Shown here piece after piece: positions 12,665-28,983 of a stretch of 64,000 nt of DNA; position 1 is the first letter of the stretch, and the number at the start of each line of letters is the position of its first letter. Position numbers and translations under genes: made by a program. The notes beneath the pieces are model-generated. The model searched no databases. It had not been told where the DNA came from and saw nothing but the letters and a program-made list of their open reading frames with translations. This DNA is from Alicyclobacillus kakegawensis NBRC 103104. GTDB lineage: Bacteria > Bacillota > Bacilli > Alicyclobacillales > Alicyclobacillaceae. Location: positions 1-64,000 of the forward strand of contig NZ_BCRP01000008.1 of assembly GCF_001552655.1 (NCBI RefSeq), written 5' to 3'.

Positions 12665-12680
12665 GTAAAGGGGGACATGC

Positions 12681-13997
12681 GTGATGTTGAACGCCGGGAC
12701 TAAGTGGACCGTAAGTGTAGTCATGGCAGGAGCAGTACTTTTGTCTGCAACAGCTTGTGGCAGTGGGGGGACTGGCAACGGCAACAGCGCTAGCAAAAGC
12801 CATTCAGCGGGACCGGTTACCATTACGTTTGGAACGTGGGGCGGTGCAGAAGAAGATGCTCAACTTCACAAGATCATCAACAAAATCAACCAGGAACATA
12901 AGAATGAATTCCATATTAAGGAAATAAATACGCCAAGTAACTATGATCAAAAGCTGAAGACCGAGATTGCGGCTGGATCGGCTCCTGATATTTTCTATCT
13001 GTCGGATGGGGAGGCCACCACCTATGCGCAAAGCGGCGCCATTCTCGATTTGCAGCCGTATCTAGACAAATACAAAGACAAATATGTGGTGGCCAATTTA
13101 GATAATTACTATCCGAATACACTAAAAAATGACAAATACGATGGAGACTACTACGCTCTCCCGTGGATTGGACAGCCGACGGTGATGTATTACAATCCGA
13201 AACTCTTCAAGCAGGCCGGTTTACAGGAGCCCAAGAACGGCTGGACGTGGCAGGATTTTCTTAATGACTGCCGTCAAATAAAGAAGAAGACCGGAGTTTA
13301 TGGATTCCTCTTGTCCAACGGTTGGCCTCCGGTGTACGACTTTATTTGGTCCTACGGCGGAGACTTTTGGAATAAAGACATGACTAAGAGTACCTTCGAT
13401 TCACCGCAAACAGTGGATGCCCTGAACATGCTGCATACTCTGGTACAGGAAAAACTGGTTCCGAGCCAGGCGGAGTTGGCCAACGTGGATATCGAAGACT
13501 TGTTCCGACAAGGTAAGGTGGCGATGTTTGCGGGAGGAGCTGCCGATGGCAACTATGCAGCGAAAGGATTTCAGGCCAAGGTGGCTCCCTTGCCAAAAGG
13601 TGCTGTCCAAGTGACGGACTTGGGTATTGATGACATGGCCATCAATGCCCACACAAAGGTGGATAAGGACACAGTATTCAAGGCGTTTGTGGCACTGCTC
13701 GACGGGATCGACCATTGGAAGGTTGTTCCGCCCATTAAACAATACGCGGCTAACTTGGAACAGTTGGATGTGCCTGACGCTCCGGGCGGACACACGCCCA
13801 AGGACAGGATTCAGCCAATCTTGACATCGATGGAACACGCGCGCCTTTTGCAAGCGCTTCCGAATCCAACAGCACAACAGAACTTCTGGAACGTGCTGGC
13901 CAACGATGTCTATGAGCCGTTGCTGTTGGGCAAAGAAACTCCGAAACAGATTGCAAAGAAGACCCAAGATGACTTGAATAATTTGATTAATAAATGA
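12681..13997 (+). CDS. sugar ABC transporter substrate-binding lipoprotein (SBP family 1)
   Basis: A 438-residue lipoprotein with a signal peptide and lipobox ATAC (Cys26), then a Gly/Asn/Ser linker. The mature part begins VTITFGTWGGAEED and carries blocks typical of MalE-like sugar-binding proteins (APDIFYL, ALPWIGQPTVMYYN, GKVAMFAGG). The start is GTG 12681 or ATG 12684 after AAAGGGGG. It captures an oligosaccharide outside the membrane for the two permeases downstream. With GH130 genes on both sides the ligand is probably a beta-mannoside oligosaccharide (inference). No ATPase gene is in the operon, so a shared MsmX-type ATPase is likely. Confidence 0.92.
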   Translation: MMLNAGTKWTVSVVMAGAVLLSATACGSGGTGNGNSASKSHSAGPVTITFGTWGGAEEDAQLHKIINKINQEHKNEFHIKEINTPSNYDQKLKTEIAAGSAPDIFYLSDGEATTYAQSGAILDLQPYLDKYKDKYVVANLDNYYPNTLKNDKYDGDYYALPWIGQPTVMYYNPKLFKQAGLQEPKNGWTWQDFLNDCRQIKKKTGVYGFLLSNGWPPVYDFIWSYGGDFWNKDMTKSTFDSPQTVDALNMLHTLVQEKLVPSQAELANVDIEDLFRQGKVAMFAGGAADGNYAAKGFQAKVAPLPKGAVQVTDLGIDDMAINAHTKVDKDTVFKAFVALLDGIDHWKVVPPIKQYAANLEQLDVPDAPGGHTPKDRIQPILTSMEHARLLQALPNPTAQQNFWNVLANDVYEPLLLGKETPKQIAKKTQDDLNNLINK

Positions 13998-14017
13998 GCG
14001 GTCGTTGACACGACAAG

Positions 14018-14106
14018 CCGCGGGCATACCAGGAGCGGTCTGTTCTATTTCTTTTGGTATGTTGAGCAAGTTACGCGGCTCCTGGCGGTGAAACCAGGGG
14101 CCGCGG
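14018..14106 (+). repeat. intercistronic hairpin set between binding protein and permease
   Basis: Several stems are possible and compete: CATACCA (14025-14031) with TGGTATG (14055-14061), or the overlapping CCAGGAGC (14029-14036) with GCTCCTGG (14078-14085). CCTGG/CCAGG (14081-14085/14094-14098) and CCGCGGG copies at both edges add more. No T-run follows. It probably lowers permease expression relative to the binding protein or protects the upstream mRNA. Confidence 0.5.
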
Positions 14107-14132
14107 GTTTATAGGAACAGGGGGGGGCTGGA

Positions 14133-15035
14133 TTGAACACGAAACACCGTGAGGCGCTATTAGGGTATCTTTACATCAGTCCCTGGTTGATAGGTTTTTT
14201 GTGCTTGACGCTCGGGCCTTTGCTGGCATCCCTGTATTTTGGATTTACTCAATACAACCTGTTAAGTGCACCAAAATTCATTGGACTGCAGAATTATATA
14301 CACCTTCTACATGATCCAGACTTCTGGCAGTCTCTGTATGTCACTTTCTATTATGCCATCTTCTCGGTTCCATTGGACTTGTTGGTAGCCCTGGGAATGG
14401 CGATTCTCCTGAATCAAAAGGTGCGACTCATGCGTTGGTTTCGCACCATATTTTACTTGCCTGCGGTGTTGCCTCCGGTGGCCGTAGCAATTTTATGGAA
14501 CTGGATATTAAATCCCAAATACGGGATACTGAATCGCTTCCTTGCTATATTACATTTGCCACAGCCCCAGTGGCTGGTGACCCCACAATGGACGGTGCCG
14601 TCCTTCATTGTTATGAGTGTTTGGGGAGTCGGCACCTGGATGATTACATTTTTGGCCGGCTTGCAAGATGTGCCTGTGAACTTGTATGAGGCCGCCATTA
14701 TAGATGGTGCATCCGTGTTGAAAAAGTTTTGGTACATCACCTTGCCCATGATTTCTCCTGTGCTGTTTTTCAACCTGGTCATGGGTGTAATCGCTGCGTT
14801 TAGTTTCTTCACACAAGCGTTTGTCATGGGTTCTGGATACGGAGGCCAAGGAGCGGGCGTCAACAATGCTGGTTTGTTTTACGCTCTCAATATCTATATT
14901 CAGGGGTTCTCCGATTTAAACATGGGTTATGCCTCTGCTCTTGCCTGGGTACTGTTTCTCATTGTCCTGCTCTTGACGTTGCTCATCTTTAAGAGTTCTG
15001 CCTTATGGGTGTATTACGGGGGTGAGAGAGAATGA
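14133..15035 (+). CDS. sugar ABC transporter permease (MalF type)
   Basis: A 300-residue membrane protein with six predicted segments. The cytoplasmic EAA loop (EAAIIDGASVLKKFWYITLP) that docks to the ATPase is intact. TTG 14133 follows a long G-rich site. It overlaps the next permease gene by four bases (ATGA), showing translational coupling. Together they form the channel for the sugar captured by the binding protein at 12681. Confidence 0.92.
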   Translation: MNTKHREALLGYLYISPWLIGFLCLTLGPLLASLYFGFTQYNLLSAPKFIGLQNYIHLLHDPDFWQSLYVTFYYAIFSVPLDLLVALGMAILLNQKVRLMRWFRTIFYLPAVLPPVAVAILWNWILNPKYGILNRFLAILHLPQPQWLVTPQWTVPSFIVMSVWGVGTWMITFLAGLQDVPVNLYEAAIIDGASVLKKFWYITLPMISPVLFFNLVMGVIAAFSFFTQAFVMGSGYGGQGAGVNNAGLFYALNIYIQGFSDLNMGYASALAWVLFLIVLLLTLLIFKSSALWVYYGGERE

Positions 15036-15916
15036 GTGCTCGTACATCGCTGACAGCCGATACCTCGTATGCCACAGGTGTGTCCGTACGGTTTTCGCGT
15101 CGCTTGTCACGGGTTGTCACGTATCTTCTCCTGGTAGGCACCTCCGTCTGTTTCCTGATTCCTTTTGCCTGGTTGATTGTGAGCGCCTTTAAGACCAGCG
15201 ATGAGATCTTTGTCTATCCGCCCATTTGGTGGCCGGAACATTGGCGCTGGGAGAATTTCGTGCAAGCGTTGACGACTCTTCCATTTGGGCGGTATGCACT
15301 GAACTCGATCTTAATTGCTGTCATAAATGTGGTCGGCAATGTGGTGTCTTGTTCGCTGGTTGCTTATGGATTTGCGCGCTTTCGATTTCCTGGGCGTCGT
15401 ATCCTTTTCATGGTGTTACTGGCAACCATGATGGTACCCAGTCAAGTGCTGCTTGTCCCGCAGTTCGTCCTATTTCACGAATTGGGGTGGACAAATACGT
15501 TTCTCCCTCTTACGGTGCCAGCCTTCTTTGGATCCGCCTTTTACGTGTTTTTACTGCGTCAGTTCTTCATGACCCTGCCGTTGGAACTTGAAGAAGCTGC
15601 GAAGATAGATGGAGCCGGGAGCTTACGTACGTTTCTTACCATTGTGCTGCCGCAAGTGAAACCTGCCTTGACAGCGGTCGCCATTTTTTCTTTCCAGGGT
15701 GCCTGGAACGACTTTCTCTCGCCTCTTATCTATTTAAATGATCCAACGAAATTTACACTGCAATTAGGACTTGCTCAATTTCAAGGTACCTACCACACGG
15801 AATGGAACCTGATTATGGCGGCGACCGTAGTCGTGATGCTGCCAATGCTGGCCATTTTCTTTGCAGCCCAACGCTATTTTATCGAGGGCATCACAATGAC
15901 AGGCTTGAAGGGATAG
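15032..15916 (+). CDS. sugar ABC transporter permease (MalG type)
   Basis: A 294-residue membrane protein with a longer cytoplasmic N terminus and six segments. The EAA loop is EEAAKIDGAGSLRTF followed by LP. The C terminus, RYFIEGITMTGLKG, is the standard MalG-type ending. It is the second half of the importer channel and is translationally coupled to the preceding permease. Confidence 0.92.
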   Translation: MSARTSLTADTSYATGVSVRFSRRLSRVVTYLLLVGTSVCFLIPFAWLIVSAFKTSDEIFVYPPIWWPEHWRWENFVQALTTLPFGRYALNSILIAVINVVGNVVSCSLVAYGFARFRFPGRRILFMVLLATMMVPSQVLLVPQFVLFHELGWTNTFLPLTVPAFFGSAFYVFLLRQFFMTLPLELEEAAKIDGAGSLRTFLTIVLPQVKPALTAVAIFSFQGAWNDFLSPLIYLNDPTKFTLQLGLAQFQGTYHTEWNLIMAATVVVMLPMLAIFFAAQRYFIEGITMTGLKG

Positions 15917-15998
15917 TTACAATGTAGCGCGGATATGGCCTAGGCTTGCCGCGTAGGAGTGGTTTTCTTGTATCTTACAGAATGGGGAGAGCCGCACA

Positions 15999-16970
15999 TT
16001 GAGTTCAGTCATACAAACCATCACTTTTCCGTTGGGCCCTTTTGTAAAACATGTCTCCAATCCGATACTTGGACCAATTGGAGATACGTGGCAGGCCAAA
16101 GACTTGTTCAATCCCACAGCTGTATGTAAAGATGGGAAAGTCTACTTACTATATCGAGCGGAAGATCATTCGGGAGTCGGGCGCTGGAATGGCACTTCCC
16201 GAATTGGACTGGCCGTCAGCGAGGATGGAATTCATTTTGAACGACATGCCGATCCCGTGTTGGTCCCTACAGAGCCCTACGAGCTTCCGGGTGGATGTGA
16301 GGATCCGCGGGTGACACAAATCGGAGACACCTACTACCTCACATATTCGGCGTTTGATGGACGCAGTGCCCGGTTGTGCCTGGCTACATCCACCGATTTG
16401 TACCATTGGACGAAGCACGGCATTCTGTTTCCTGAGTGGCCGGGTGGTAGATCACATAGGGTGTGGTCAAAATCTGGTGCCATTCTGGGCGATCCCATTG
16501 CAGGGCGATACGTAATGTATTTCGGTGATACGAACATCTGGATAGCTTACTCGGAAGACCTCATCCACTGGACTCCCGATGCTACCCCGGTTCTGTGTCC
16601 TTCGGACCATCCCCAAGCTTTCGACAGCGCGCTGGTTGAGCCTGGGCCTTCACCCATACTGACCAGTGACGGTATTCTTTTAATATACAATGCAGCCAGA
16701 CGCATAGAGCCTGTCGACGCGTCGTTCCTGGATTCGTCAGGTTACAGCCTTTACTATGCCGTCGGACAAGCCCTCTTTTCGCAGGAGGATCCCGCTCGGG
16801 TATTGGCGCGCACGGCCGAGCCCTTCATGATTCCAGGTTCTGAAGACGAGCTGAAAGGTCAGGTGGACAACGTGGTGTTTGCCGAAGGCCTTGTCCATCA
16901 TAATGACGTCTGGTACCTCTACTACGGCATGGCCGATTCAAAGATTGGCGTCGCAACGTTGGTGAAGTAA
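15999..16970 (+). CDS. GH130 phosphorylase, second copy
   Basis: A 323-residue protein with the GH130 signature GGCEDPRVTQIGDTYYLTYS and the propeller element KDGKVYLLYRAED. It is clearly paralogous to the enzyme at 11582 but diverged, so the two probably cleave different mannosides or act in sequence. TTG 15999 follows GGGGAGA. It is the last gene of the ROK-GH130-ABC operon and is followed by a terminator. Phosphorolysis would conserve energy as mannose 1-phosphate. Confidence 0.87.
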   Translation: MSSVIQTITFPLGPFVKHVSNPILGPIGDTWQAKDLFNPTAVCKDGKVYLLYRAEDHSGVGRWNGTSRIGLAVSEDGIHFERHADPVLVPTEPYELPGGCEDPRVTQIGDTYYLTYSAFDGRSARLCLATSTDLYHWTKHGILFPEWPGGRSHRVWSKSGAILGDPIAGRYVMYFGDTNIWIAYSEDLIHWTPDATPVLCPSDHPQAFDSALVEPGPSPILTSDGILLIYNAARRIEPVDASFLDSSGYSLYYAVGQALFSQEDPARVLARTAEPFMIPGSEDELKGQVDNVVFAEGLVHHNDVWYLYYGMADSKIGVATLVK

Positions 16971-16989: not shown

Positions 16990-17036
16990 GCTGTCCTGAA
17001 ACCCGCCGTAAGACGGGAGAAGGGACAGCCATTTTT
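16990..17036 (+). terminator. terminator at end of GH130 operon
   Basis: Stem GCTGTCC (16990-16996) / GGACAGC (17023-17029) encloses a second stem (CCCG/CGGG) and is followed by CATTTTT. It directly abuts the IS remnant, so an IS end contributing to it cannot be excluded. Confidence 0.65.
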
Positions 17037-17593
17037 ACTTTCTTATGTGAACTATTTCCCTATTCCCCACATTTCGTGCTCGTTCTTTCGGTGTGTAAGT
17101 GGCTGGGATACAAACTGATATTGAAAGATTTTTATACGGAAGTAGGTCGTTGACCGACAGCGTCTCAGGCAGGGACAGTAACGAGGGGAGAGTGGTTTGC
17201 TGCCAATAAGACCGTGTGAACCGCTTGGAGCCGGGCTCCACGAGGCGGGCAACAATCATGCCGATGACGATGGAGCGCGAAAGCTCATCACCGCCGAGCA
17301 GTTTGTCCAGTCCGACTTGGCGAACAGTTGAGAGGACGGCCCATACGGCGCCGTGAGACCGGGAAGTGGTAATCCGGAAGGTTTCGGACGCTGAGATGAA
17401 CGCCTCTCCTTTCAGGGCGCGGCGAATGAGCTCGACGACATGCTCGGGGGAGTGCGGACAGATTGGCGAGCGTGCGATGTTTGACCTTTCCATCCTCCCG
17501 GTACGTCTGGCGAAGAAGAATGGAGGTATAGGTCTTGCCCTTGTATGTACGTTTGGTGATGGCTACGTGCATGGCGTTGGATGGTTTTCTCAT
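17035..17593 (-). mobile_element. IS1634-type transposase remnant
   Basis: Two overlapping frames on the minus strand together read like the start of an IS1634 (IS4 superfamily) transposase. The N-terminal piece, MHVAITKRTYKGKTYTS and on through YREDGKVKHRTLANLS, ends near 17462. The continuation, VVELIRRALKGEAFIS and GAVWAVLSTVRQVGLDKLLGG, lies in another frame to about 17080. Full transposases of this family exceed 500 residues; only about 150 remain, with no DDE catalytic core. It is thus frameshifted and truncated, and inactive. Confidence 0.75.
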
Positions 17594-17867: not shown

Positions 17868-19940
17868 ATGCATCTGCGCGTAAACGGAGACCAGGTAGTG
17901 GTCGCCCACCGGGGACGGGTCTTGATTCGGCATCAGGCCGACAAGCCGTGGCTCTGTGTCGGCCGCGGTTCGGCGACTTACGACATGCACAAAGGCAACT
18001 TCACCATTGAAGACTCATTGGCAGAGAAGGTGCCTTTGAGCAAATTAGAAGCCTATGCAGAGGGCCTATCCGATGAGGTGACGTCAGTACGTTTGGTGGC
18101 CAGCGGACGTGGTGGGGTCACCGTATGTGCAGATGTGAGCTTAGACCGACATGGCGACGTTGTCGTGGTATTCAGTCCATGCCCCCAGGACGCATCTGGC
18201 ACCAGTGTGGAAGCCTGGAATCGCTGGTGGATTCGAGTCCCGTCGGAACCTGGAGAGGCCGTCTTTGGTTGCGGAGAACAATTTTCTCACCTGAATCTGC
18301 GGGGGCGAAGGTTTCCTTTATGGGTATCTGAGCAAGGCGTAGGGCGGAACAAGAAGACCTATGAGACGTTCCTCGCGGACACTCATGAAGGGGCCGGCGG
18401 GGACTATTACACAACCTATTTTCCGCAGCCGACGTTTGTGTCCAGCCAAAAGTACTACTTCCACGTGGAGACCAGTGGTTACAGCGTATTTGATTTTCGT
18501 GACAAAGATGCCCATCAAATCGAGATTTGGGGGGCGCCGCCTTCTGTCCGCATCGGCGTGGATGAAACGTTTGCAGGTGTTTTGGAACGACTGACTGCTT
18601 ACATGGGCCGACAACCGGAATTACCCGAATGGGTCTATGACGGCGTCTGGTTAGGCTTGCAGGGCGGGACCGACGTGGTTGATGCCAAATTGCGCCGCGC
18701 TCGAAATGCAGGTGTTCAGGTCGCCGCCGTATGGGCTCAGGACTGGCAAGGCAAGCGTATCACACCATTCGGAAAACAGCTCATGTGGAATTGGCGATGG
18801 GACAGAAATTTGTATCCCAATCTGGACAAAGCGATTCCCGAGTGGCGACGACAGGGAATACGTTTCCTTGGCTATATCAACTGTTTTTTGGCCATTGAGG
18901 GAGACCTATATGAAGAAGCTAAGAAAAAGGGATACCTTGCCCGCAATCGGGAAGGCCATCCTTATCACGTCGTGATTACGTCGTTTCCCGCAGCCATGGT
19001 GGATCTCACGAACCCAAATGCGGTCGCATGGCTTAAACGCCTCATCCAGAGAGAGATGATAGACCTCGGACTATCCGGTTGGATGGCCGATTTTGGGGAG
19101 TATCTGCCTACAGATGCCGTTCTGTACAACGGCAGGGCCGAGGAGTTGCACAATCAATGGCCAACGCTTTGGGCCCGTGTGAACCGTGAAGCCGTGGAAG
19201 AGTATGGACGACTGGGCCGTGTCATCTTCTTTATGCGTGCGGGCTACTCACACTCGGGGAAATACACGACGATGGTATGGGCAGGAGATCAAAATGTGGA
19301 TTGGAGCCGAGACGATGGTCTGCCCTCGGTTATCCCGTCAGCGCTTTCCTTGGGCATGTCTGGAGTGGGTCTTCATCACAGCGACATCGGTGGATACACC
19401 ACGTTGTTTCACATAAAACGCTCCAAAGAATTGTTTATGCGCTGGGCAGAGCAAGCAGCCTTTACGGTTTTAATGCGAACTCACGAGGGGAACAGGCCTG
19501 ATGACAACTGGCAGTTTGACGGGGATGAGGAAACTCTGCGCCACTTTGCGCGCATGAGCCAAGTTCATGTCGCGCTCAAGCCGTACTTACAACACTTGGT
19601 GAGGGAAAACAGTCAGCGCGGGATGCCGGTTGTGCGGCCAATTTTTCTTCATTATGAAAACGAACCGTATTGGTACGATGTCCAGGACGCATATCTGCTG
19701 GGGCGAGACGTGTTGGTAGCTCCTGTGTTGCAGGAACAGGTTGTGGAGCGAAAGATTCGGCTGCCTCAAGACGAATGGATCCATCTTTGGTCGGGTCACT
19801 CCTACCATGGAGGCGAAGTGGCGGTGGCCGCACCGCTCGGGGAGCCGCCTGTCTTTTACCGGGCTTCTTCACCGTACAAGGAGTTGTTTGAGTCAGTGCG
19901 GTCAGTCGTTTCGCATCCGAAAAAATTTTTGGGCCGATAA
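17868..19940 (+). CDS. GH31 alpha-glycosidase, YihQ (sulfoquinovosidase)-like with altered sulfonate site
   Basis: A 690-residue protein that follows Escherichia coli YihQ closely over its whole length (GCGEQFSHLNLRG, GRQPELPEWVYDG, HHSDIGGYTTLF, MRTHEGNRPDDNWQFDG). The nucleophile is Asp408 in WMADFGEYLP and the acid/base Asp474 in WAGDQNVDW. Sulfoquinovosidases bind the sulfonate with a Gln-Gln-Arg-Trp-Tyr set (YihQ 262, 288, 301, 304, 508). Here the equivalents are Gln265, Gln291, Gln304, Trp307 and Tyr510, so the arginine is a glutamine (codon CAG at 18777). That makes plain sulfoquinovosidase activity doubtful. ATG 17868 follows GGCGGGGG. No signal peptide, so it acts on imported glycoside. 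It heads a cluster with an importer, isomerase, kinase and aldolase. Confidence 0.88.
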   Translation: MHLRVNGDQVVVAHRGRVLIRHQADKPWLCVGRGSATYDMHKGNFTIEDSLAEKVPLSKLEAYAEGLSDEVTSVRLVASGRGGVTVCADVSLDRHGDVVVVFSPCPQDASGTSVEAWNRWWIRVPSEPGEAVFGCGEQFSHLNLRGRRFPLWVSEQGVGRNKKTYETFLADTHEGAGGDYYTTYFPQPTFVSSQKYYFHVETSGYSVFDFRDKDAHQIEIWGAPPSVRIGVDETFAGVLERLTAYMGRQPELPEWVYDGVWLGLQGGTDVVDAKLRRARNAGVQVAAVWAQDWQGKRITPFGKQLMWNWRWDRNLYPNLDKAIPEWRRQGIRFLGYINCFLAIEGDLYEEAKKKGYLARNREGHPYHVVITSFPAAMVDLTNPNAVAWLKRLIQREMIDLGLSGWMADFGEYLPTDAVLYNGRAEELHNQWPTLWARVNREAVEEYGRLGRVIFFMRAGYSHSGKYTTMVWAGDQNVDWSRDDGLPSVIPSALSLGMSGVGLHHSDIGGYTTLFHIKRSKELFMRWAEQAAFTVLMRTHEGNRPDDNWQFDGDEETLRHFARMSQVHVALKPYLQHLVRENSQRGMPVVRPIFLHYENEPYWYDVQDAYLLGRDVLVAPVLQEQVVERKIRLPQDEWIHLWSGHSYHGGEVAVAAPLGEPPVFYRASSPYKELFESVRSVVSHPKKFLGR

Positions 19941-20044
19941 AGATCATGATGTTATTACGTTGTGATGAATGGGCGTGCGCGTTTCAAGAACGATGATAAG
20001 GTTTAGGCCATAGCATTGGCCTGGCTGTAAGAGGAGGGGTTCGG

Positions 20045-20800
20045 ATGACCGATGTGCGTGTGTCCCAATTGGAACATGGCGGGCATGTCCCACTTTACGT
20101 CCAGTTGTCCAATTTACTTCGAAACCAAATCGTTGCAGGAGAATGGAGGGCGGGGGACGTCATCCCGACTGAGGCCGAGCTGATGGAGACTTACCAAGTC
20201 AGTCGGACGACCGTCCGGGAGGCGGTTTCGCTTCTGGTGAATGAGGGGCTGCTTCGCCGAAAACAGGGGAAAGGCACCATTGTGCAACAGCCCCGTGTAT
20301 CTGAAACGTTGGGGAAACTCACGGGTTTTTCGGAGGAAATCCGCTCGCGCGGCATGGTCCCAGGCGCACGCTGCCTGCAGTGCGGCTTCGTAGGTGCTAA
20401 TCCCCGGGTTTCCCGATGTCTGGGATGTCCAGAGGGCACCACTGTACTTCGGACGTATCGATTGCGTCTGGCCAACGGCGAGCCAATTGCTGTTGAAGAA
20501 AGCTATTGGCCAAAACCCATAGGCCAAATCCTTCTCAATCACGATCTCGATACAGCCGCCTATTACGACATTTTGGAGGGAGATGCCAACATTGTCCTTT
20601 CTTCGGCAGAGGAAGTCATCAGGGCCGTCAATGCGAGCGCTGAGGAAGCTAAACTTTTGGAAGTTAAGCCTGCGTCCGCGTTGTTGATGATGGAACGCGT
20701 TACCATGAGTGCCAACTATGGTGTCATCGAATACTGTCGAACAAAATACCGTGCGGACAGATATGATTATCGGATTCGGCTGCAACGTTCCAGAGGATGA
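20045..20800 (+). CDS. GntR-family regulator, HutC/UTRA type
   Basis: A 251-residue repressor. Residues 10-80 are the GntR winged helix (LYVQLSNLLRNQI, SRTTVREAVSLLVNEGLLRR, GKGTIV) and residues 95-245 the UTRA ligand domain, which in this subfamily binds sugars or sugar phosphates. ATG 20045 follows AGAGGAGGGG. It lies between the GH31 gene and the ABC importer, so it very likely regulates the whole 17.9-28.8 kb cluster in response to a pathway intermediate. Confidence 0.92.
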   Translation: MTDVRVSQLEHGGHVPLYVQLSNLLRNQIVAGEWRAGDVIPTEAELMETYQVSRTTVREAVSLLVNEGLLRRKQGKGTIVQQPRVSETLGKLTGFSEEIRSRGMVPGARCLQCGFVGANPRVSRCLGCPEGTTVLRTYRLRLANGEPIAVEESYWPKPIGQILLNHDLDTAAYYDILEGDANIVLSSAEEVIRAVNASAEEAKLLEVKPASALLMMERVTMSANYGVIEYCRTKYRADRYDYRIRLQRSRG

Positions 20801-20875
20801 CTTCATGGAGTGGCAGACAGGGACGTGTGAATATATGGGTGCAGCACAAGGACATGAACAAGAGGGGGAAATGTC

Positions 20876-22174
20876 GTGAAAAGTATCAGAAGGACATTGA
20901 CCGTGGCATTGTCTGCAGTCGGGTTGTTGGCCGCAGTAACGGGTTGCTCTACCGGAAGTGGGAGTGCGAATGGAGCGAAGACGGGGACGACGTCCTCCGT
21001 GAATTCAAGCGGGAAGCCCGTGACCTTGACATTTTTGCATTGGCGTGGGGAGGATGTTCCTGAGTTCAACAAGCTCATCGCAGATTTTCACAAGCTCCAT
21101 CCGAACATCAATGTCCAGATGAAGGTCATTCCTTCCAATCAGTACATTGCACAGGCGCAGGCAGATCTGACAGGTCCCCATGGGGCGGATGTCTTCACTT
21201 CGTTTCCAGGCTCGGAATTCAATGCGATTGAAAAGGCCGGTTTGTACACGGACCTCACCCATCAACCATTTATAAAAAATTTCAATCCGAACTTGATACA
21301 AGCGGGACAGGATAAGGGAAAGCAACTAGCCATTCCATATCAAGTCGTATTCAACATGCCCGTATACAATAAGGGCCTGTTCAAAAAGTTGAATCTCTCT
21401 GTCCCAACAAATTGGAACGGATTTTTAAAACTCTGCCAGACTCTGAAGAACCACGGTTACACGCCTATCGTTTTCGCGGGTGAAGTGAGTGCTGGACAGT
21501 TCTTTAACGACATGGTGATGAACAATGTGCCGGATCCAAAAGTATTCACAGGTTTGCAGGACGGGTCATCCAAACTGACGGATCCTGGTTTCCTCAAAAC
21601 CTTCGAGCAAATTTCCGAGCTCGCGAAAAAAGGTTACTTCCAAAAAGGTCCGTTGGGAACCTCTCAGGACGCTGCCACGGCCATCTTTGCCCAAGGGAAA
21701 TCTGGCATGTTGGCCCTGGGAAGCTATCAAATAGCGCCCGTTAATACGGACAACAACCGTGCATTTCAGATGGGCCTGATGGCACCCATCACCACGAACA
21801 GTGCGAGCGACGCCAAGTATAAAGGCATTGACACGACGACCTTTATGTTGGGTGTGAACAAAAATTCTTTGCACAAAAAGGAAGCCGAAGAATTTATCAG
21901 CTACTTGTCGGAGCCGAAGGTGGCAGCCCAGTATGCAAATGCAACGGATCAGATGGTCACGGTTCGGAATGTGAATTACACAGATCCTGTTTTAAAAGCG
22001 ATGGAGCCTATGTTGAATCAGCCTCTTCGTTTCCAACCGATGTACACGTTGACCAATCAACAGGTAGTAGACGCTGTGACCACGGCGGTTGAGGATGTCA
22101 TCTCTGGCATGGATCCAAAAGCAGCTGCGGAAAAAGAGCAGAAAGCGATTGATCAAGCGTTGCAGCAAAAGTAA
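20876..22174 (+). CDS. sugar ABC transporter substrate-binding lipoprotein
   Basis: A 432-residue lipoprotein: signal peptide with VTGC lipobox (Cys24), Gly/Ser linker, then an SBP_bac_1 mature domain beginning PVTLTFLHWRGEDVPEFN. The later ALGSYQIAPVN block and the C-terminal helical region are typical. GTG 20876 follows AGAGGGGGAA. It starts the transport part of the cluster and should present a glycoside or free hexose derivative to the permeases at 22513 and 23406. As in the other two sugar importers here, no ATPase gene is present. Confidence 0.92.
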   Translation: MKSIRRTLTVALSAVGLLAAVTGCSTGSGSANGAKTGTTSSVNSSGKPVTLTFLHWRGEDVPEFNKLIADFHKLHPNINVQMKVIPSNQYIAQAQADLTGPHGADVFTSFPGSEFNAIEKAGLYTDLTHQPFIKNFNPNLIQAGQDKGKQLAIPYQVVFNMPVYNKGLFKKLNLSVPTNWNGFLKLCQTLKNHGYTPIVFAGEVSAGQFFNDMVMNNVPDPKVFTGLQDGSSKLTDPGFLKTFEQISELAKKGYFQKGPLGTSQDAATAIFAQGKSGMLALGSYQIAPVNTDNNRAFQMGLMAPITTNSASDAKYKGIDTTTFMLGVNKNSLHKKEAEEFISYLSEPKVAAQYANATDQMVTVRNVNYTDPVLKAMEPMLNQPLRFQPMYTLTNQQVVDAVTTAVEDVISGMDPKAAAEKEQKAIDQALQQK

Positions 22175-22512
22175 CCGGATAAAAGGCGGAATCTCGGATT
22201 CAGAGCGCCGCGCTGCAGGAAGTATCACCGAATGGTTGCGGGATTAGGAATTGGGGTCACGGAATTCTTATGGCGGCCGATGAGGTGAGCACGATGGCGC
22301 CGCCCCTTTCCGATTTGACTGCTCCATCGAGTGGTATGGCTTGTTCGCTGCGTGCAGATGCCGCCATGCATGGCGGCGTCTGTCGCTCCAGCGGGCGGCA
22401 ATTGGCCAGGGAAGTCCATGTAAGTGGGCCATTTGCGAAGCGCATGCCCAGACATGGTTTTGTTGTGTGATTACGGTCAGCCAGGTCATGGTCGTCTGAG
22501 AGGAGGATGCAG
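22175..22512 (+). repeat. gap between binding protein and permease with palindromic hairpin
   Basis: No gene is seen in this 338-base gap, although the genes on both sides belong to one importer. It contains a perfect 18-bp palindrome, GCCGCCATGCATGGCGGC (22360-22377), extendable through a T-G pair to AGA/TCT, which would form a stable hairpin. A promoter for the permease genes or a processing site could also be here. Confidence 0.5.
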
Positions 22513-23391
22513 ATGCGGGCCAAACCGTCCATCTACCTATTTCTATTGCCTGGTGGGCTGATTTTTCTCATCTTTTTTGTAGTGCCGACCATTTACGGTC
22601 TTTCGTTGAGTTTCACGAACTGGGACGGGCTCTCTCCGCAGTTGCAATTCATTGGATTCGCCAATTACGCGCATCTTTTGACGGATGACAGTTCGTTCCA
22701 CACTGCCATTGGGAACACCCTGAAATTCGTCCTCACCGTTGTGATTATCCAATCCACCTTGTCGTTGATTTTGGCCATCTATTTGCTGAAGAATACGAAG
22801 GTCAACATCTTCTTACGGACGTTATATTTTTTCCCTACAATCCTGTCTTCAGTTTCGGTAGCTTTTATTTGGATGTTTATTTACGATTCGAACATCGGGA
22901 TTCTCAACACGCTTCTTGGGGATGTAGGGCTCCAGAGTTTGCAAGCTTCTTGGTTGGGCGATCAGCGCATGGCTATCTACTGTATCGCCGCCACTGAGAT
23001 TTGGGCTCACACGGGACAGTTGCTCATCATCTATTTGGCCGGCTTACAACAGATACCCCACGAGCTATACGAGGTCGCCATGCTGGAAGGCGCTTCCCGA
23101 TGGCAAACGTTCCGTAAAGTGACGTGGCCCCTGCTCGCTCCTGCCACCACCATCGTGGTCGCGTACACCACCATCCAGTCGTTTCGTATGTTCGACCTGA
23201 TCTTTGCTATGACGGATGGTGGCCCCGGAAACTCTACGGAGGTTCTGGCGACGTACATCTACCATCAGGCCTTCCAGTACAATCACGTGGGATACGCGTC
23301 GGCGGTGTCGATGCTTTTCATGGTCATCATCGCCCTCATCACAATGGCGCAGTTTGGACTGCTGCGGTTCCGTTCCCTGAAGAGTGCCTGA
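22513..23391 (+). CDS. sugar ABC transporter permease (MalF/UgpA type)
   Basis: A 292-residue, six-segment membrane protein with an EAA-type loop (EVAMLEGASRWQTFRKVTWP) and the DGGPGNSTEV motif found in this subfamily after the loop. ATG 22513 is preferred because AGGAGG (22501-22506) touches the upstream ATG 22507 directly. It pairs with the next gene to form the importer channel of the GH31 cluster. Confidence 0.92.
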   Translation: MRAKPSIYLFLLPGGLIFLIFFVVPTIYGLSLSFTNWDGLSPQLQFIGFANYAHLLTDDSSFHTAIGNTLKFVLTVVIIQSTLSLILAIYLLKNTKVNIFLRTLYFFPTILSSVSVAFIWMFIYDSNIGILNTLLGDVGLQSLQASWLGDQRMAIYCIAATEIWAHTGQLLIIYLAGLQQIPHELYEVAMLEGASRWQTFRKVTWPLLAPATTIVVAYTTIQSFRMFDLIFAMTDGGPGNSTEVLATYIYHQAFQYNHVGYASAVSMLFMVIIALITMAQFGLLRFRSLKSA

Positions 23392-23405
23392 GGAGGTGAC
23401 TCAGA

Positions 23406-24215
23406 TTGCGGTTTCTTCGCATTCCGGTGATTTGGGCCTATGCCCTGGTGATCGCTGTGCCCGTGCTGGTGGTTGTGGAGAGCAGTTTCAAGTCACTCGC
23501 GACACTTTATCAGGATCCACTGTGGCCGACGAAAGGGATGTCCGGACAGTCGTACCAGACCCTAACGTCACAGGTACCATTATTTCGCTATTTCATGAAC
23601 AGTGCAGAGGTGACCGTCGTTTCTCTGATCTTAATCATCCTCCTGGGGAGTATGATCTCATATGCGATTCTGCGTCTCCCTCGGATTCCAAGCATGATTG
23701 TGTACGGCGTGTTCGCGGTTGGCATGATGATTCCGACCCAGGTCAATATGATCCCGATGTATTTGGAAATGGCCCGTTTGGGACTGGTGAACTCGCGCAT
23801 CGGGTTGATTTTAGTCGAAACTGCATTTCTCCTACCCATATGCGTGTTCATTATCGGTGGCTTTATGCGGACACTGGCAAAAGAGCTGCTTGAAGCGGCG
23901 AAGGTGGATGGTTCAGGTGAGTGGCAGATGTACTGGCGTATCGCCATGCCTTTGTCGATGCCGGCCATCGCCAGCGCAGCCGTCTTCGCCGGCGTGATTG
24001 TGTGGAACGACCTATTGTTTCCACTGCTACTTATCAAGTCGAATGACAAAGATACCCTGCCATTGGCCTTGCTGAGCTTTTCCGGGCAGTACCAGACCAA
24101 CTATCCTGTCATTTTTGCCGGGGTATTGCTGGCCAGCATTCCTATGGTGGTGCTGTACGTGTTCTTGCAGAGGTACTTCATCGCCGGAATGACGGCCGGT
24201 GCCGTGAAAGGTTGA
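23406..24215 (+). CDS. sugar ABC transporter permease (MalG/UgpE type)
   Basis: A 269-residue, six-segment membrane protein with EAA loop EAAKVDGSGEWQMYWRIAMP and the usual C terminus RYFIAGMTAGAVKG. TTG 23406 follows a canonical AGGAGGTGA site located at the end of the upstream gene, so the two permeases are tightly coupled. The importer likely brings in the substrate of the GH31 enzyme or of the isomerase. Confidence 0.92.
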   Translation: MRFLRIPVIWAYALVIAVPVLVVVESSFKSLATLYQDPLWPTKGMSGQSYQTLTSQVPLFRYFMNSAEVTVVSLILIILLGSMISYAILRLPRIPSMIVYGVFAVGMMIPTQVNMIPMYLEMARLGLVNSRIGLILVETAFLLPICVFIIGGFMRTLAKELLEAAKVDGSGEWQMYWRIAMPLSMPAIASAAVFAGVIVWNDLLFPLLLIKSNDKDTLPLALLSFSGQYQTNYPVIFAGVLLASIPMVVLYVFLQRYFIAGMTAGAVKG

Positions 24216-24253
24216 ACAGCGGGGACGGAGTGACGACGAAGGGGTGTCGTTGT

Positions 24254-25609
24254 ATGGTACAGCGTTCCAAACTGCGGCTGGGATTCGTGGGTCTGGGCAG
24301 AAAGACGTTCGATACAGCGCTTGCTTCTCAGTATCTCGACGATTCCATCCATTTTCTGAGTGAACACTGTCCACGATTGACAGCGGTTTCGAATTTGGTC
24401 ACGGACATGGAGGAGGTCCACGAAGCCGTTGAAAATCTGCGTGGGAAAATCGATGTTCTTATTGTGCAGTTCACGACGTTTGTGGACGGACGGTTCATCG
24501 AGGCCTTGGCGCGGCAGATTCGCGTTCCGACTATCGTCTGGGCGATTCGGGAGCCCAACCGCGGTGTGCGGCGAAGATTAGCCTTGAATTCCCTGACAGG
24601 CGCCAATCTCGCCAGCCACGTCCTGGTTCAAGAACACGTGGCTTTTCAATTCTTGTATGGCGATCCTGGTGAGGCAGTGACAGTTAACCGACTTACGGCT
24701 CTTCTGCGCTACTTCGAAGCTTATCGTAAAATGCGCTCGTTTACGGTTGTCACGTTGGGCGATGCGCCCGATGGGTTTCAATTCAGCCTGCCTCATCGGC
24801 GGGCACAACAACAATTAGGGATTCACATGGAGTCTCTGGATCTCCAAGAGACGTTTGCCCGGGCCGAATCTGTGCCGGACGATGCCGTGATAAGCGTCCT
24901 TGACGATGTTCGCCGCCGGGTTCGCGGTTTGGATCGGCAGCCGCGCGATGCCGTTCTGAAGTTCGCCAAGATGCAGCACGTGCTCCGACAAGATTTGGCG
25001 CGTCTTGGCGCTGACGCAGTGGCCGTGCGGTGTTGGCCGGAGTTTTTCACGGAGTTTGGCGCGGCCGCTTGCTCCACCGTGTCTGCGCTTATCGAGGACG
25101 GAATTGTGGCTTCCTGCGAGGCGGACGTCCTTGGGGCTCTTTCAATGGACGTGGTCAGCTGCCTGACCGGATCACCTGCGTATTTAGGCGATCTTGTTGA
25201 ACTCGACGAATCCACAGGCGCCATGACCTTTTGGCACTGCGGCGCGGGCGCGTTTTCCCTAGCGCGACCGACGGAAGGTGCCACGGCAGGGGAACATCCC
25301 AATCGTGCTATCGGGTTTACGTTGGAATTCGGTCTGAAGCCAGGTCGGGTGACGATTTTCCGCTTGGGTGAAGATGTTGATGGTGGGGTGCGGGCGCTAG
25401 TGTCGTCAGGCACCGTGTTGGATGAGCCCCAGCGATTCCTCGGAACATCGGGACGTGTTGTGCTTGACGGGCCAGAGCCTCCTCTGCAGCGGCTGACGCG
25501 AGTACTGGAGGCGGGGTGGGAACCGCATTACGCCCTTGCCTATGGAGACGTTGCAGATTGGCTTGTGAAGCTGTGTGGACAGTTCGGAATTGAAGCCATG
25601 ATGTTTTAG
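24254..25609 (+). CDS. L-fucose/L-arabinose isomerase-like protein, candidate hexose-derivative isomerase
   Basis: About 451 residues. The N terminus (LRLGFVGLG, DVLIVQFTTFVDGRFIEAL) and C-terminal half (WPEFFTEFGAAACSTVSALIEDG, ADVLGALSMDVV, HCGAGAF) match the fucose-isomerase-like fold; metal-binding candidates are Glu in PEFF, the Asp of EADVLG and the His in WHCG. ATG 24254 follows GAAGGGG; an upstream TTG at 24212 overlaps the permease stop. The family interconverts aldoses and ketoses, and published sulfo-EMP2 clusters use a member of this kind (SqvD) to isomerise sulfoquinovose. Here it precedes a kinase and an aldolase, giving an isomerise-phosphorylate-cleave order. The true substrate is uncertain. 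Confidence 0.75.
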   Translation: MVQRSKLRLGFVGLGRKTFDTALASQYLDDSIHFLSEHCPRLTAVSNLVTDMEEVHEAVENLRGKIDVLIVQFTTFVDGRFIEALARQIRVPTIVWAIREPNRGVRRRLALNSLTGANLASHVLVQEHVAFQFLYGDPGEAVTVNRLTALLRYFEAYRKMRSFTVVTLGDAPDGFQFSLPHRRAQQQLGIHMESLDLQETFARAESVPDDAVISVLDDVRRRVRGLDRQPRDAVLKFAKMQHVLRQDLARLGADAVAVRCWPEFFTEFGAAACSTVSALIEDGIVASCEADVLGALSMDVVSCLTGSPAYLGDLVELDESTGAMTFWHCGAGAFSLARPTEGATAGEHPNRAIGFTLEFGLKPGRVTIFRLGEDVDGGVRALVSSGTVLDEPQRFLGTSGRVVLDGPEPPLQRLTRVLEAGWEPHYALAYGDVADWLVKLCGQFGIEAMMF

Positions 25610-25690
25610 GGAGCGTCCGGAAAGCGCATAAATTTCTGTGAACTCTCTGGGGTGGAGTCTTGGAACGGCTGGACATGGGGGAGGATACAG

Positions 25691-26923
25691 ATGAGGGTAG
25701 CGGTTGGACAGTTCGGTGCACCGACTGCGGTTCTGAATGCCTCATTGTTTGGTGTTTTGGACTCGCTCAGCAAGGCTGGTGCCGAAGTTTATGGCATTCT
25801 CGGCGGCGCCTGGGGGCTGTCTCAAGGGAACGTACATCCTCTTTCTTTCGCCCGTCCTCCCGAGTGGCTCTTGCATACTCCGGGGGCGGCACTTGGGGCT
25901 GGACGCCAATTGAGCTTCGCAGCACATGCGGGGGAAGCGGTTCAGAACTTGCGGGAAAGACATGTGGATGCGCTCATCGTGATGGGCGGCAACGGCACGA
26001 TGGCCCTGGGACAGATTGTGGAGCGGGAATCGCAAGCGAGGGGATATGACCTTCAGGTTATAGGCATCCCGAAGACTATCGACAATGACATCGCAGGCGT
26101 GGACCACACTCCGGGTTATCCTAGTGCCGCCCAGTTTGTCCTGAAGGCATTATGCGATTTGGCGATTGATCTGGAAGCCATGGTGGGATTCGAGCAGGTG
26201 CGGGTCGTGGAGGTGATGGGGCGCAGGACTGGTTGGCTGGCCGCCGCTGCGGCCCTATACGATGACCTATTCCGAGAAGTGCGCGGGTCATCAGCGGATC
26301 ATGCGGGTGGATGGGACGTTAATCGCCTGTCTCGACGCCGGGTTCGCCCCATCGTCTGTCTGCCGGAGCGGCCATTTCACCTGGATCAGGTGCTGGGAGA
26401 TGTGCAACGGCGTGTACGCGAGGATGGTTGTACGATGGTGGTGGTCAGTGAGGGGGTCCAACCTGCGGATGGACAGGTCATGTTCCAAACAGACCATGGC
26501 CAGGACAAGGCCCGTCCGTTTATGTGGGGTGGCGTTGGCGCATGGCTTGCCGAAGCTATTCGTGACCAGACGAAATTCGGAGTTCGATATGAAAATCTCG
26601 GATTGCTCCAGCGTTGTTGGTCAAGGTTCAGTGTACCCTTGGATGTAGCAGAGGCGGTGCGGGTCGGCCGCGAAGGAGCACACAAGGTGCTCGCGGGAGA
26701 GAGCGGCCAAATGGTGGGGCTCGTGAGGTCTCGCCAGAGTGAGTACCACGTCGACACCGTCGGTATCCAGCTGTCGGAAGTGGCGGGAAAGGAGCGGGTC
26801 ATGACGGAGGACGAGGCGAAATTAGGACCGACGTTTCGCGACTGGCTTCGCCCGTTGCTGGACTGGAGTATGCTGTGCCCTCATCCAAGGCTGACTATGT
26901 CCGGGATGACCATAGGAGAGTGA
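25691..26923 (+). CDS. phosphofructokinase-family sugar kinase
   Basis: A 410-residue PfkA-superfamily kinase. The nucleotide motif is GGNGTMALG; GG-x-G rather than GG-x-D points to ATP as donor, although PKTIDND carries the lysine seen in the PPi/long clade. The catalytic Asp pair TIDND and the VMGRRTGWLA block are intact. In fructose 6-phosphate kinases a GxxQRGG motif with a histidine helps hold the C6 phosphate; the corresponding stretch here is GLLQRCW, so another ketose may be the substrate. ATG 25691 follows GGGGGAGG. Between isomerase and aldolase it should phosphorylate C1 of a ketohexose derivative, as SqvB is reported to do for sulfofructose. Confidence 0.82.
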   Translation: MRVAVGQFGAPTAVLNASLFGVLDSLSKAGAEVYGILGGAWGLSQGNVHPLSFARPPEWLLHTPGAALGAGRQLSFAAHAGEAVQNLRERHVDALIVMGGNGTMALGQIVERESQARGYDLQVIGIPKTIDNDIAGVDHTPGYPSAAQFVLKALCDLAIDLEAMVGFEQVRVVEVMGRRTGWLAAAAALYDDLFREVRGSSADHAGGWDVNRLSRRRVRPIVCLPERPFHLDQVLGDVQRRVREDGCTMVVVSEGVQPADGQVMFQTDHGQDKARPFMWGGVGAWLAEAIRDQTKFGVRYENLGLLQRCWSRFSVPLDVAEAVRVGREGAHKVLAGESGQMVGLVRSRQSEYHVDTVGIQLSEVAGKERVMTEDEAKLGPTFRDWLRPLLDWSMLCPHPRLTMSGMTIGE

Positions 26924-26928
26924 AACTG

Positions 26929-27774
26929 ATGCCGCTCACGTCAGGCTACATTTTGAGAGATGCGTTTGCAGGGGGATACGCCGTACCTGCCTTCAGCGTA
27001 CACAGTGAGGCTATGGTAGATGCCATCTTGGCAGAGGTGGATGCACTTCGCAGTCCGGTACTGCTGCAGATTGGTCAGCGTGCCATTCGGAACGGCCAGA
27101 TGCAGGTGTTGGCTCAGCATATCGCGCGCAGCGCGCAAAACGTACGGATCCCCGTTGTCATTCACCTCGACCACTGCCACCAGTTCGATCAAGTTGTTCA
27201 GTCGCTCCGCGCCGGGTTTACCTCCTGTATGATGGATGCCTCTTCACTACCGTATTCCGACAACGTACAAGCAACGGCTGCAGTGGTGAACCTCTGCCAC
27301 GCCGTGGACGTGCCTGTGGAGGGGGAACTCGGTGCCATTGGCGGTGTGGAGGATGACGTGGCAGTGGCGGACGAGGATGCCGTCTTTACGGCACCCGACG
27401 CTGCGGAAAAATTTGTGTCGGAAACAGGGGTGGATTCACTGGCGGTGGCCATCGGATCGGCCCATGGGATGTACAGGCGCGAACCGAAGCTGCGACTCGA
27501 CTTGCTGCGGGAAATTCGTGCCGCGACGGGTGTGCCGCTGGTGCTGCACGGGGGTTCCGGCATCCCGCGGGAACAAATAGAGGCGAGTATCCAGCTAGGC
27601 ATCGCGAAAATCAACTTTGACACAGAGCTTCGTCTCGCATACATGGCCGGTTGGAGGGCTGGCGCAACGAGCTATCCAGACGATCCGTTTTCCGCTCAAT
27701 GCGTGGCCAATGAGGCTTTGCGTCAAGTGGTGCGAGACAAGGTAGACTGGTGCGGTTCAGCACAGCGTGTCTAG
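26929..27774 (+). CDS. class II (zinc) ketose-bisphosphate-type aldolase
   Basis: A 281-residue TIM barrel of the FbaA/GatY/KbaY family. Zinc and catalytic residues are visible: Asp and His in IHLDHCHQFD, Glu in GELGAIGG, His in GSAHGMY, His in VLHGGSGIP, and the phosphate-binding KINFDTELR. It would split a ketose 1-phosphate to dihydroxyacetone phosphate and a three-carbon aldehyde. ATG 26929, five bases after the kinase stop, follows AGGAGAG. Order and spacing make it the third step after isomerase and kinase, comparable to SqvA in the sulfo-EMP2 route. Confidence 0.87.
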   Translation: MPLTSGYILRDAFAGGYAVPAFSVHSEAMVDAILAEVDALRSPVLLQIGQRAIRNGQMQVLAQHIARSAQNVRIPVVIHLDHCHQFDQVVQSLRAGFTSCMMDASSLPYSDNVQATAAVVNLCHAVDVPVEGELGAIGGVEDDVAVADEDAVFTAPDAAEKFVSETGVDSLAVAIGSAHGMYRREPKLRLDLLREIRAATGVPLVLHGGSGIPREQIEASIQLGIAKINFDTELRLAYMAGWRAGATSYPDDPFSAQCVANEALRQVVRDKVDWCGSAQRV

Positions 27775-27882
27775 GAATTGGGCCCGCCGCCAGACAGCTT
27801 GCAAGCGAGATGATGCAACCGGCATGGGTTCTGAGATCCAGGAGGATGGCGCAGCGTTCAGATAGGAAAGGAGTGCAGACGT

Positions 27883-28836
27883 GTGCCCAGTCGGATTGTG
27901 ATTTCGGAAGATCTTTGGGTTAATCTACCCGAAGGGTTTGGTAATGGCCGCACTGTGGTTTACGATCCGTCTTTGGTCGGCGATCGACAGCGGCTATTGC
28001 GACTCGGCCCCGACACAGAAGCACTGATTGTCCGCAACCAGACACGTGTGGATGAGGAACTATTGGAGAATTTCCCGAATCTCCGCATCGTAGGGCGGCT
28101 TGGAGTCGGACTTGACAATATCGACTTAACAGCCTGCCAGCGACGCGGCATTCCGGTTGTCTCCGCCCGCGGATTTAACGCGAACGCTGTGGCAGAGTAC
28201 GTGATGGCGTGTCTGTTGCAGCATGTTCGGCCACTCTTTCGTTGGAACGAGGCGGTTCGACGGGGCGCGTGGGATCGGATGGCCGCGATGGGGGAGGAAG
28301 TCTACGGGAAGACCCTGGGGCTTATCGGGATTGGCGACATCGGGCAGCGAGTTGCGACGCGAGCACGGGCTATGGGATTAACCGTTGTGGCATATGATCC
28401 GTTCATACTCCCTTCCCATTCCGTTGTGCGGGACGTCGGCGTAGCCCTGATCTCGCTGGACGACCTCCTGAGGTCATCGCATTTTGTATCGGTGCACGTC
28501 CCACTTACGGATACTACGCGTCATCTGCTCAATGGCCCTGCCTTGGCGAAGATGCGTGAAGATAGTGTGCTTATCAACACCTCGCGCGGAGGCATTGTCG
28601 ACGAGGACGCGCTCGCCGAGGTGCTCGTGAATTTTCCGACAAGATTTGCCTATCTGGATGTGCGGTCCACGGAGCCGCCAGGTCCCGATGATCGACTTCG
28701 TTCTCTGGACAATGTCTGCCTTACGCCGCACATCGCCGGAATCACAGTGGAGTCCTCCCATGAGGTGGCTTGGTTTGTCCTTACGCAGGTGATGGAACAA
28801 CTGGAGGGACGTAAGGCCATGGGCATTGTCCCGTAG
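27883..28836 (+). CDS. D-isomer 2-hydroxyacid dehydrogenase (SerA/SlcC-like)
   Basis: A 317-residue NAD-dependent dehydrogenase. The cofactor motif is GLIGIGDIGQRVA, the Arg lies in NTSRGGIVDE, and the catalytic His is in LTPHIAGIT. The N-terminal substrate domain has the RLGVGLDNID element. GTG 27883 follows GAAAGGAG. Related proteins include phosphoglycerate dehydrogenase and (S)-sulfolactate dehydrogenase SlcC. In this cluster it could handle the 2-hydroxyacid derived from the three-carbon product of the aldolase, but no aldehyde dehydrogenase is encoded next to it. Substrate is therefore an inference. Confidence 0.85.
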   Translation: MPSRIVISEDLWVNLPEGFGNGRTVVYDPSLVGDRQRLLRLGPDTEALIVRNQTRVDEELLENFPNLRIVGRLGVGLDNIDLTACQRRGIPVVSARGFNANAVAEYVMACLLQHVRPLFRWNEAVRRGAWDRMAAMGEEVYGKTLGLIGIGDIGQRVATRARAMGLTVVAYDPFILPSHSVVRDVGVALISLDDLLRSSHFVSVHVPLTDTTRHLLNGPALAKMREDSVLINTSRGGIVDEDALAEVLVNFPTRFAYLDVRSTEPPGPDDRLRSLDNVCLTPHIAGITVESSHEVAWFVLTQVMEQLEGRKAMGIVP

Positions 28837-28983
28837 GATGGGAGACACTGCATTATGGTACGGCATCGTGCAGGTGAACCTCCGGACGACACCGGTAGGG
28901 ACTGTGTGAAGCGGGGGCCCGGAGTCGGACCCCTAGGCGCACAGGCTACCTCGATGACAAAACACAACGACTTGTCCTCCCGT

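Follow-up and report, generated by a model that had tools for sequence, protein, structure and literature searches.

A sulfo-EMP2-like gene cluster in Alicyclobacillus kakegawensis with a probable role in sulfoquinovose breakdown

Which sugar is degraded by the products of a nine-gene cluster in Alicyclobacillus kakegawensis NBRC 103104? The cluster (positions 17868-28836) lies in the first 64,000 nucleotides of contig 8 (NZ_BCRP01000008.1) of a 3.42 Mb genome that is 99.75% complete (G000); this stretch is hereafter the window. An earlier note on this DNA likened the cluster to the sulfo-Embden-Meyerhof-Parnas 2 (sulfo-EMP2) breakdown of sulfoquinovose (SQ), a plant sulfolipid sugar whose annual production is ~10 billion tons (PMC10755693), and raised the possibility of a glucoside with a different C6 substituent. 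All nine genes are on the plus strand, open, and uninterrupted, and the single direction and gene families named in the note were confirmed by open reading frames (ORFs), Pfam, and NCBIfam: glycoside hydrolase family 31 (GH31; PF01055/PF21365), GntR with UTRA, SBP_bac_1, two BPD_transp_1, Fucose_iso_C, phosphofructokinase (PFK), class II F_bP_aldolase, and D-isomer 2-hydroxyacid dehydrogenase. The ATP-binding cassette (ABC) importer is represented by a binding protein and two permeases; the cluster contains no gene for its ATPase. Most gaps are short, as described; the exceptions are 332 bp separating the binding protein gene from that of the first permease, 108 bp upstream of the dehydrogenase, and 104 bp downstream of the GH31. 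In line with the conserved neighbourhoods that the note proposed to compare, at least six further genomes have the same gene order with some variation. Between the window and its sister cluster in G036, dN was 0.07-0.29 and dS was saturated or >1.7, and the cluster genes, including those for the isomerase and dehydrogenase, are under strong purifying selection. Given this recurrence, low dN, and saturated dS, the cluster is not a chance assembly. The functions, substrates, and reactions assigned below are read from sequence, by way of gene content, families, conservation, neighbourhoods, and phylogeny.

We consider it probable that the window holds a sulfo-EMP2 SQ catabolic cluster of an Alicyclobacillaceae type, with a sulfonate as the most likely C6 substituent. 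A sulfonated sugar appears much the likeliest substrate because the cluster encodes sulfo-EMP2 homologues, an importer with 71-79% identity to that of a canonical-looking sulfo-EMP2 cluster, and a dehydrogenase resembling SlcC. The analysis bears out the note in having the C6 group survive into the C3 product. It lends no support to a C6 group other than a sulfonate, given the importer identity, kinase residues at the C6-phosphate positions that match those of canonical SqiKs or nearly so, and the nesting of the dehydrogenase among SlcC-like proteins. In the predicted route, a sulfoquinovoside, for example sulfoquinovosyl glycerol, would enter through the ABC importer, served by an ATPase from another locus. 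The GH31, as a retaining alpha-glycosidase whose pocket lacks the customary arginine, would then free SQ from it. A SqvD-type metal isomerase would convert SQ to 6-deoxy-6-sulfofructose, a SqiK-type kinase would phosphorylate the sulfofructose at C1, and a SqiA-type aldolase would cleave the product to dihydroxyacetone phosphate (DHAP) and 3-sulfolactaldehyde (SLA). An aldehyde dehydrogenase (ALDH) encoded elsewhere would then convert SLA to (S)-sulfolactate (SL), and the SlcC-like enzyme would convert (S)-SL to 3-sulfopyruvate, with the GntR/UTRA protein presumably controlling the cluster.

Isomerase, kinase, aldolase, and importer

Two loci, L060 (G144, of a different Bacilli family from the window) and L061 (G291), resemble canonical sulfo-EMP2 clusters and encode DUF4867, an Arg-bearing GH31, isomerase, kinase, aldolase, and ALDH. 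The window isomerase, kinase, and aldolase were 37-43% identical to their counterparts at these loci, and their homology to SqvD, SqiK, and SqiA, respectively, upholds the resemblance to sulfo-EMP2 seen in the earlier note. The isomerase, 40-43% identical to canonical-looking homologues, is of the SqvD type (PF02952 family) expected of sulfo-EMP2, reaching 29.4 bits against a Fucose_iso_C cut-off of 29.3. Homologues with ~48-66% identity were found in 7 of 58 other genomes of the order, and other Bacilli held homologues of 39-43% identity. A search of PDB sequences gave no homologue of the isomerase; its predicted model (pLDDT 91.7) has an AraA/FucI fold, with TM scores up to 0.83, as published for SqvD (PMC9594981).

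The kinase (PF00365) and class II aldolase (PF01116) expected of sulfo-EMP2 are encoded alongside the isomerase. At positions 162, 243, 249, and 252 of Escherichia coli PfkA, which we take to bind the C6 phosphate, the window kinase has Gln, Arg, Leu, and Arg, and the residues are the same or nearly so in canonical SqiKs and the other cluster kinases. A change of the kinase's sulfonate site by way of Gln at PfkA Arg162 was considered and dropped, since most cluster kinases have Gln. Both the window kinase and canonical-looking SqiKs have GGNGT as their PFK signature, Asn replacing PfkA Asp103, and Lys at position 124. The window kinase also passes the cut-off of a pyrophosphate (PPi)-dependent PFK subfamily, so that either ATP or PPi may be the phosphoryl donor. 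The curated models nearest to the aldolase were tagatose- and fructose-bisphosphate aldolases, below cut-off, and this was equally so for the canonical-looking SqiA of L060. Grouping with tagatose, fucose, or inositol pathway enzymes, which the note had held would count against its proposal, did not occur for the isomerase or kinase, and for the aldolase extended to these sub-cut-off matches. Of the names SqvD, SqvB, and SqvA used in the note, the last two do not fit: in the literature (PMC9594981), the sulfo-EMP2 kinase is SqiK and the aldolase SqiA, SqvB denotes a putative mutarotase, and a transaldolase is called SqvA.

The sulfo-EMP2 clusters of Bacillus urumqiensis and Megamonas rupellensis (PMC9594981) likewise combine a FucI-like isomerase, PF00365 kinase, PF01116 aldolase, GH31, and ABC importer, and the same order of chemistry is expected in the window. 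Unlike these, the window cluster lacks SqvB (DUF4867, usual but not universal in sulfo-EMP2) and an SLA dehydrogenase or reductase, carries a Gln-type GH31, and adds the SlcC-like dehydrogenase. In contrast to the 37-43% identity of the three enzymes, all three importer proteins were 71-79% identical to those of L060, a conservation that argues for the same ligand. Alignment of the binding protein to the PDB, for its site, returned distant sugar-binding proteins only.

The terminal dehydrogenase and related clusters

Among 72,556 plasmids, the best matches to the dehydrogenase were hydroxyacid dehydrogenases in Paracoccus, Sinorhizobium, Methylobacterium, and Rhodococcus, and a SuyB query matched several of the same plasmids. 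In each of the three annotated plasmid neighbourhoods, an Ldh-family (ComC) gene came after the hydroxyacid dehydrogenase, and two of them also held a UxaA gene pair (SuyA, SuyB) within ~6 kb; sulfite/sulfate exporter genes were nearby in two of the three. SlcC, ComC, and SuyAB form the gene set for sulfolactate desulfonation (PMC12421959). A dehydrogenase homologue lies directly upstream of SuyA-SuyB in G006 and precedes SuyA, SuyB, and ComC in G040, and the window dehydrogenase nests in an Alicyclobacillaceae group with these two; those of G024, the window, and G036 form a group with 87/98 support. Because it nests among dehydrogenases adjoining SuyAB or ComC, the window enzyme is likely an (S)-sulfolactate dehydrogenase, the comparison being with SlcC-like proteins assigned by their gene neighbourhoods.

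Alicyclobacillaceae clusters with various of SqgA-like, DUF4867, ALDH, SlcC, SuyA, SuyB, and ComC genes encode isomerase homologues with 53-65% identity to that of the window. G040, G020, and G024 share the arrangement SqgA-like, importer, GntR, isomerase, kinase, aldolase, ALDH, and dehydrogenase, with DUF4867 also present in G040 and G020, and one contig of G037 holds GntR, kinase, aldolase, ALDH, dehydrogenase, and ComC. The SqgA-like genes belong to the Gfo/Idh/MocA family and occupy the position expected of the GH188 NAD-dependent sulfoquinovosidase SqgA (PMC10755693), to which they are assigned by family and context only; the window cluster has no such gene and carries the GH31 instead.

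Most sulfoglycolytic bacteria presumably excrete a short sulfonate that others mineralise. In G040, ~15 kb of contiguous DNA (L027, G040:C1, 3417-18297) encodes DUF4867, the SqgA-like protein, a binding protein, two permeases, GntR, SqvD, SqiK, SqiA, ALDH, SlcC, SuyA, SuyB, and ComC. This locus is predicted to be a single-organism tandem of sulfoglycolysis and sulfolactate sulfolyase that would mineralise SQ to sulfite: SQ to DHAP and SLA, and SLA through (S)-SL, sulfopyruvate, and (R)-SL to pyruvate and sulfite. In G020, the upper part and SuyA-SuyB-ComC are at two separate loci. One cluster in G040 and two loci in G020 predict that SQ breakdown and desulfonation coexist within single bacteria of a Gram-positive lineage. 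Sulfosugar breakdown and desulfonation in one bacterium has been called unusual (PMC12421959). The tandem sulfofucolytic-sulfolactate sulfolyase pathway of Paracoccus wurundjeri (PMC12421959) likewise employs an SlcC homologue after the sulfosugar steps, and G040 further resembles it in encoding homologues of ComC, SuyA, and SuyB within its one cluster; the Paracoccus pathway differs in that its upper part is an Entner-Doudoroff-type sulfofucose route in a proteobacterium, compared to sulfo-EMP2 in Bacilli, and the window itself lacks ComC and SuyAB. Our literature search found no such tandem reported for SQ, but its coverage was incomplete and no priority is claimed.

Other clusters are smaller. 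In G036 (L026, 5414-13319), GH31, importer, isomerase, and dehydrogenase genes are under purifying selection without a kinase or aldolase gene beside them. The G006 cluster (L028) has a kinase reduced to its C-terminal half (11138-11659), and a second kinase homologue in the same genome (G006:C1:2507695-2508792) matches in two pieces.

The GH31 site, absent parts, and rival explanations

Several observations weigh against an SQ-directed cluster, beginning with the GH31. It scores best with NCBIfam model PRK10426, the YihQ family (962 bits; cut-off 553), and it retains the catalytic aspartates (408, 474), two glutamines (265, 291), Trp307, and Tyr510. YihQ Arg301, Trp304, and Tyr508, which we take to be the sulfonate contacts, correspond to Gln304, Trp307, and Tyr510, and thus the arginine of GH31 sulfoquinovosidases is missing, as the earlier note had recognised in its comment on this site. 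All four solved YihQ-family structures (YihQ, 5aed; SftG, 8r56; SmoI, 5ohs; and 6pnr, deposited as an alpha-glucosidase) have both Arg301 and an FGEF loop; the window enzyme shares the aspartates, glutamines, Trp, and Tyr of their SQ site but has neither of these features, ITSFPAA replacing FGEFYGG/FYCGG. In a maximum-likelihood tree, Arg-type GH31s form one clade (support 97/98) that excludes the window and G036 enzymes, which are 48-54% identical to Arg-type homologues; the order of branching among the window, rumen, and Arg-type lineages is not settled in this tree, which carries a long-branch warning. The structure model has too low a confidence at key loops (297-303, 474-484, 508-516) for the pocket to be read from it.

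The site is not, however, altered as the note had it, given that the window and G036 fall outside the Arg-type clade and that the outgroup also has Gln. Because Gln occupies this position in outgroup membrane GH31s of the same order, the sulfonate Arg probably arose within the Arg-type lineage. These proteins (L125-L128; G025, G024, G035, G045), which may be an outgroup for the YihQ group, are membrane-anchored, 36-41% identical to the window enzyme, and, judging from short loci, outside SQ clusters. Four rumen GH31s (L022-L025) also have Gln, with a loop similar to that of the window, and their neighbours encode a SqvD-like isomerase, transaldolase, 6-phosphogluconate dehydrogenase-like reductase (expected to be an SLA reductase), TauE-like exporter, and, in some, DUF4867; these are apparent sulfo-transaldolase operons. 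The loci (L022, 4048-11332; L023; L024; L025) are of a rumen/Lachnospiraceae type, and their GH31s lack the GVGRNK segment of other YihQ-family members. A degenerate site at Gln304 was rejected, since outgroup and rumen-operon GH31s carry Gln as well, and for the same reason Gln is not strong evidence against SQ. Gln-type GH31s thus appear to co-occur with SQ pathways in two separate lineages, which is context rather than proof of activity, and the window GH31 probably works as a sulfoquinovosidase despite lacking the arginine motif and falling outside the clade. If Gln-type GH31s prove to be sulfoquinovosidases, arginine-motif screens would miss them, including those of the rumen.

The remaining adverse points concern the isomerase score and absent genes. 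The sole significant NCBIfam match of the isomerase is sulfoquinovose isomerase SftI, at 438 bits below the cut-off of 700, which the L060 isomerase passes (820 bits). No PF02615 protein (ComC) was found in the window genome, a SuyB query matched only UxaA proteins of 27-35% identity, leaving the SlcC-like enzyme without these partners, and DUF4867 (SqvB putative mutarotase) is absent, as it is from G036, G024, and G006. In G024, which has ALDH and dehydrogenase, a close SuyB or ComC was likewise not found. The cluster has no ALDH, the nearest in the window genome to that of the G040 cluster being 41% identical and on another contig; it has no sulfonate exporter, and no SLA dehydrogenase (SlaB) or YihU-type reductase, for the latter of which a genome-wide search was not made. 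The D-2-hydroxyacid dehydrogenase stands in place of these SLA enzymes. The sister cluster of G036 retains GH31, importer, isomerase, and dehydrogenase but contains no aldolase gene, and a kinase of this kind is absent from the whole G036 genome. Onward use of sulfopyruvate by Xsc or by a CuyA-type cysteate sulfo-lyase (TIGR01275) was rejected because neither had a match over cut-off in the window genome.

Might these features mark a different substrate? The window and G036 clusters might derive from an SQ cluster yet act on a glucoside with another, neutral or carboxylate, C6 group (quinovose, 6-O-methylglucose, glucuronate), their Gln-type GH31 and dehydrogenase being fitted to it, a reading we hold to be unlikely. 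Gln304 and the ITSFPAA-type loop are common to the two, their dehydrogenases and isomerases are mutually nearest relatives, and DUF4867, SqgA, ALDH, ComC, and SuyAB are absent. On the corresponding account of this lineage, which we find similarly doubtful, an SQ-type cluster would have been redirected, its GH31 belonging to a branch in which the sulfonate Arg was always missing and a single 2-hydroxyacid dehydrogenase handling the C3 acid in place of the SLA enzymes. Gln-type GH31s are also present, however, in rumen operons alongside genes for transaldolase and for SLA-reductase-like and TauE-like proteins, the kinase residues around the C6 group are unchanged, and both the importer conservation relative to canonical sulfo-EMP2 and the nesting of the dehydrogenase among SuyAB-linked SlcC-like proteins argue against another C6 group.

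Loss, rather than redirection, would explain the stepwise absence of genes over G006, G024, the window, and G036: the cluster would be a decaying remnant of the mineralisation pathway seen in its relatives and would no longer allow growth on SQ, having lost ALDH, ComC, and SuyAB, with the kinase and aldolase also gone from G036 and half a kinase left in G006. With nine open genes, strong purifying selection that includes the isomerase and dehydrogenase, and a highly conserved importer, we think this improbable. Ordinary glucose- or tagatose-type catabolism, with an alpha-glucosidase and cleavage in the style of fructose or tagatose 1-phosphate, would fit the nearest curated models of the aldolase and surroundings rich in GH130 and sugar ABC genes. 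It is nonetheless very improbable, since the only significant NCBIfam match of the isomerase is to a sulfoquinovose isomerase, the GH31 matches YihQ best, and tagatose- or galactitol-pathway genes are absent from the cluster. A sulfo-EMP2 cluster directed at SQ is the reading we prefer.

Gene calls and genomic setting

Likelier starts of the isomerase (24254), kinase (25691), and aldolase (26929) in Table 1 were judged from the DNA.

Table 1. Features of the cluster and its right edge (window positions)
Feature	Position	Strand	Basis
GH31 glycosidase, YihQ family, outside Arg301 sulfoquinovosidase clade	17868..19940	+	ORF, Pfam, NCBIfam, alignment, tree
GntR/UTRA regulator	20045..20800	+	37-52% identity to homologues in related sulfoglycolytic clusters
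ABC importer solute-binding lipoprotein	20876..22174	+	74% identity to L060, 80% to G036
ABC permease 1	22507..23391	+	79% identity to L060, 88% to G036
ABC permease 2	23406..24215	+	71% identity to L060
SqvD/SftI-type isomerase (putative)	24212..25609, likelier start 24254	+	NCBIfam; AraA/FucI fold in model
SqiK-type PFK-family kinase (putative)	25691..26923; alternative GTG start 25652	+	Pfam, residues
SqiA-type class II aldolase (putative)	26929..27774; alternative GTG start 26875	+	Pfam
D-2-hydroxyacid dehydrogenase, SlcC-like ((S)-sulfolactate dehydrogenase-like)	27883..28836	+	Pfam, tree, neighbourhoods
Right edge of sequence not common to window and congener G022	28837..28877	.	Comparison with G022

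The congener G022 matches the window at ~90% from 28877 rightward; leftward, from 41 bp past the dehydrogenase stop, that contig carries other genes, and the congener G021 also differs on the left. Neither the isomerase nor a window-type GH31 was found in G021 or G022. These data are consistent with a cluster in a variable carbohydrate region, gained by transfer or lost in the congeners. The gap between binding protein and permease (22175-22506) contains a strong hairpin (CGCCGCCATGCATGGCGGCG region), the folding of the 332 bp as a whole not being unusual (z -1.35), and the same gap is ~20 bp in L028. Just upstream of the GH31, two short overlapping ORFs on the minus strand (17035-17593) resemble a transposase remnant by eye, with no Pfam match. 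Further upstream (11582-16970), two GH130-family genes flank an ABC sugar importer, likely forming a mannoside-phosphorolysis cluster.

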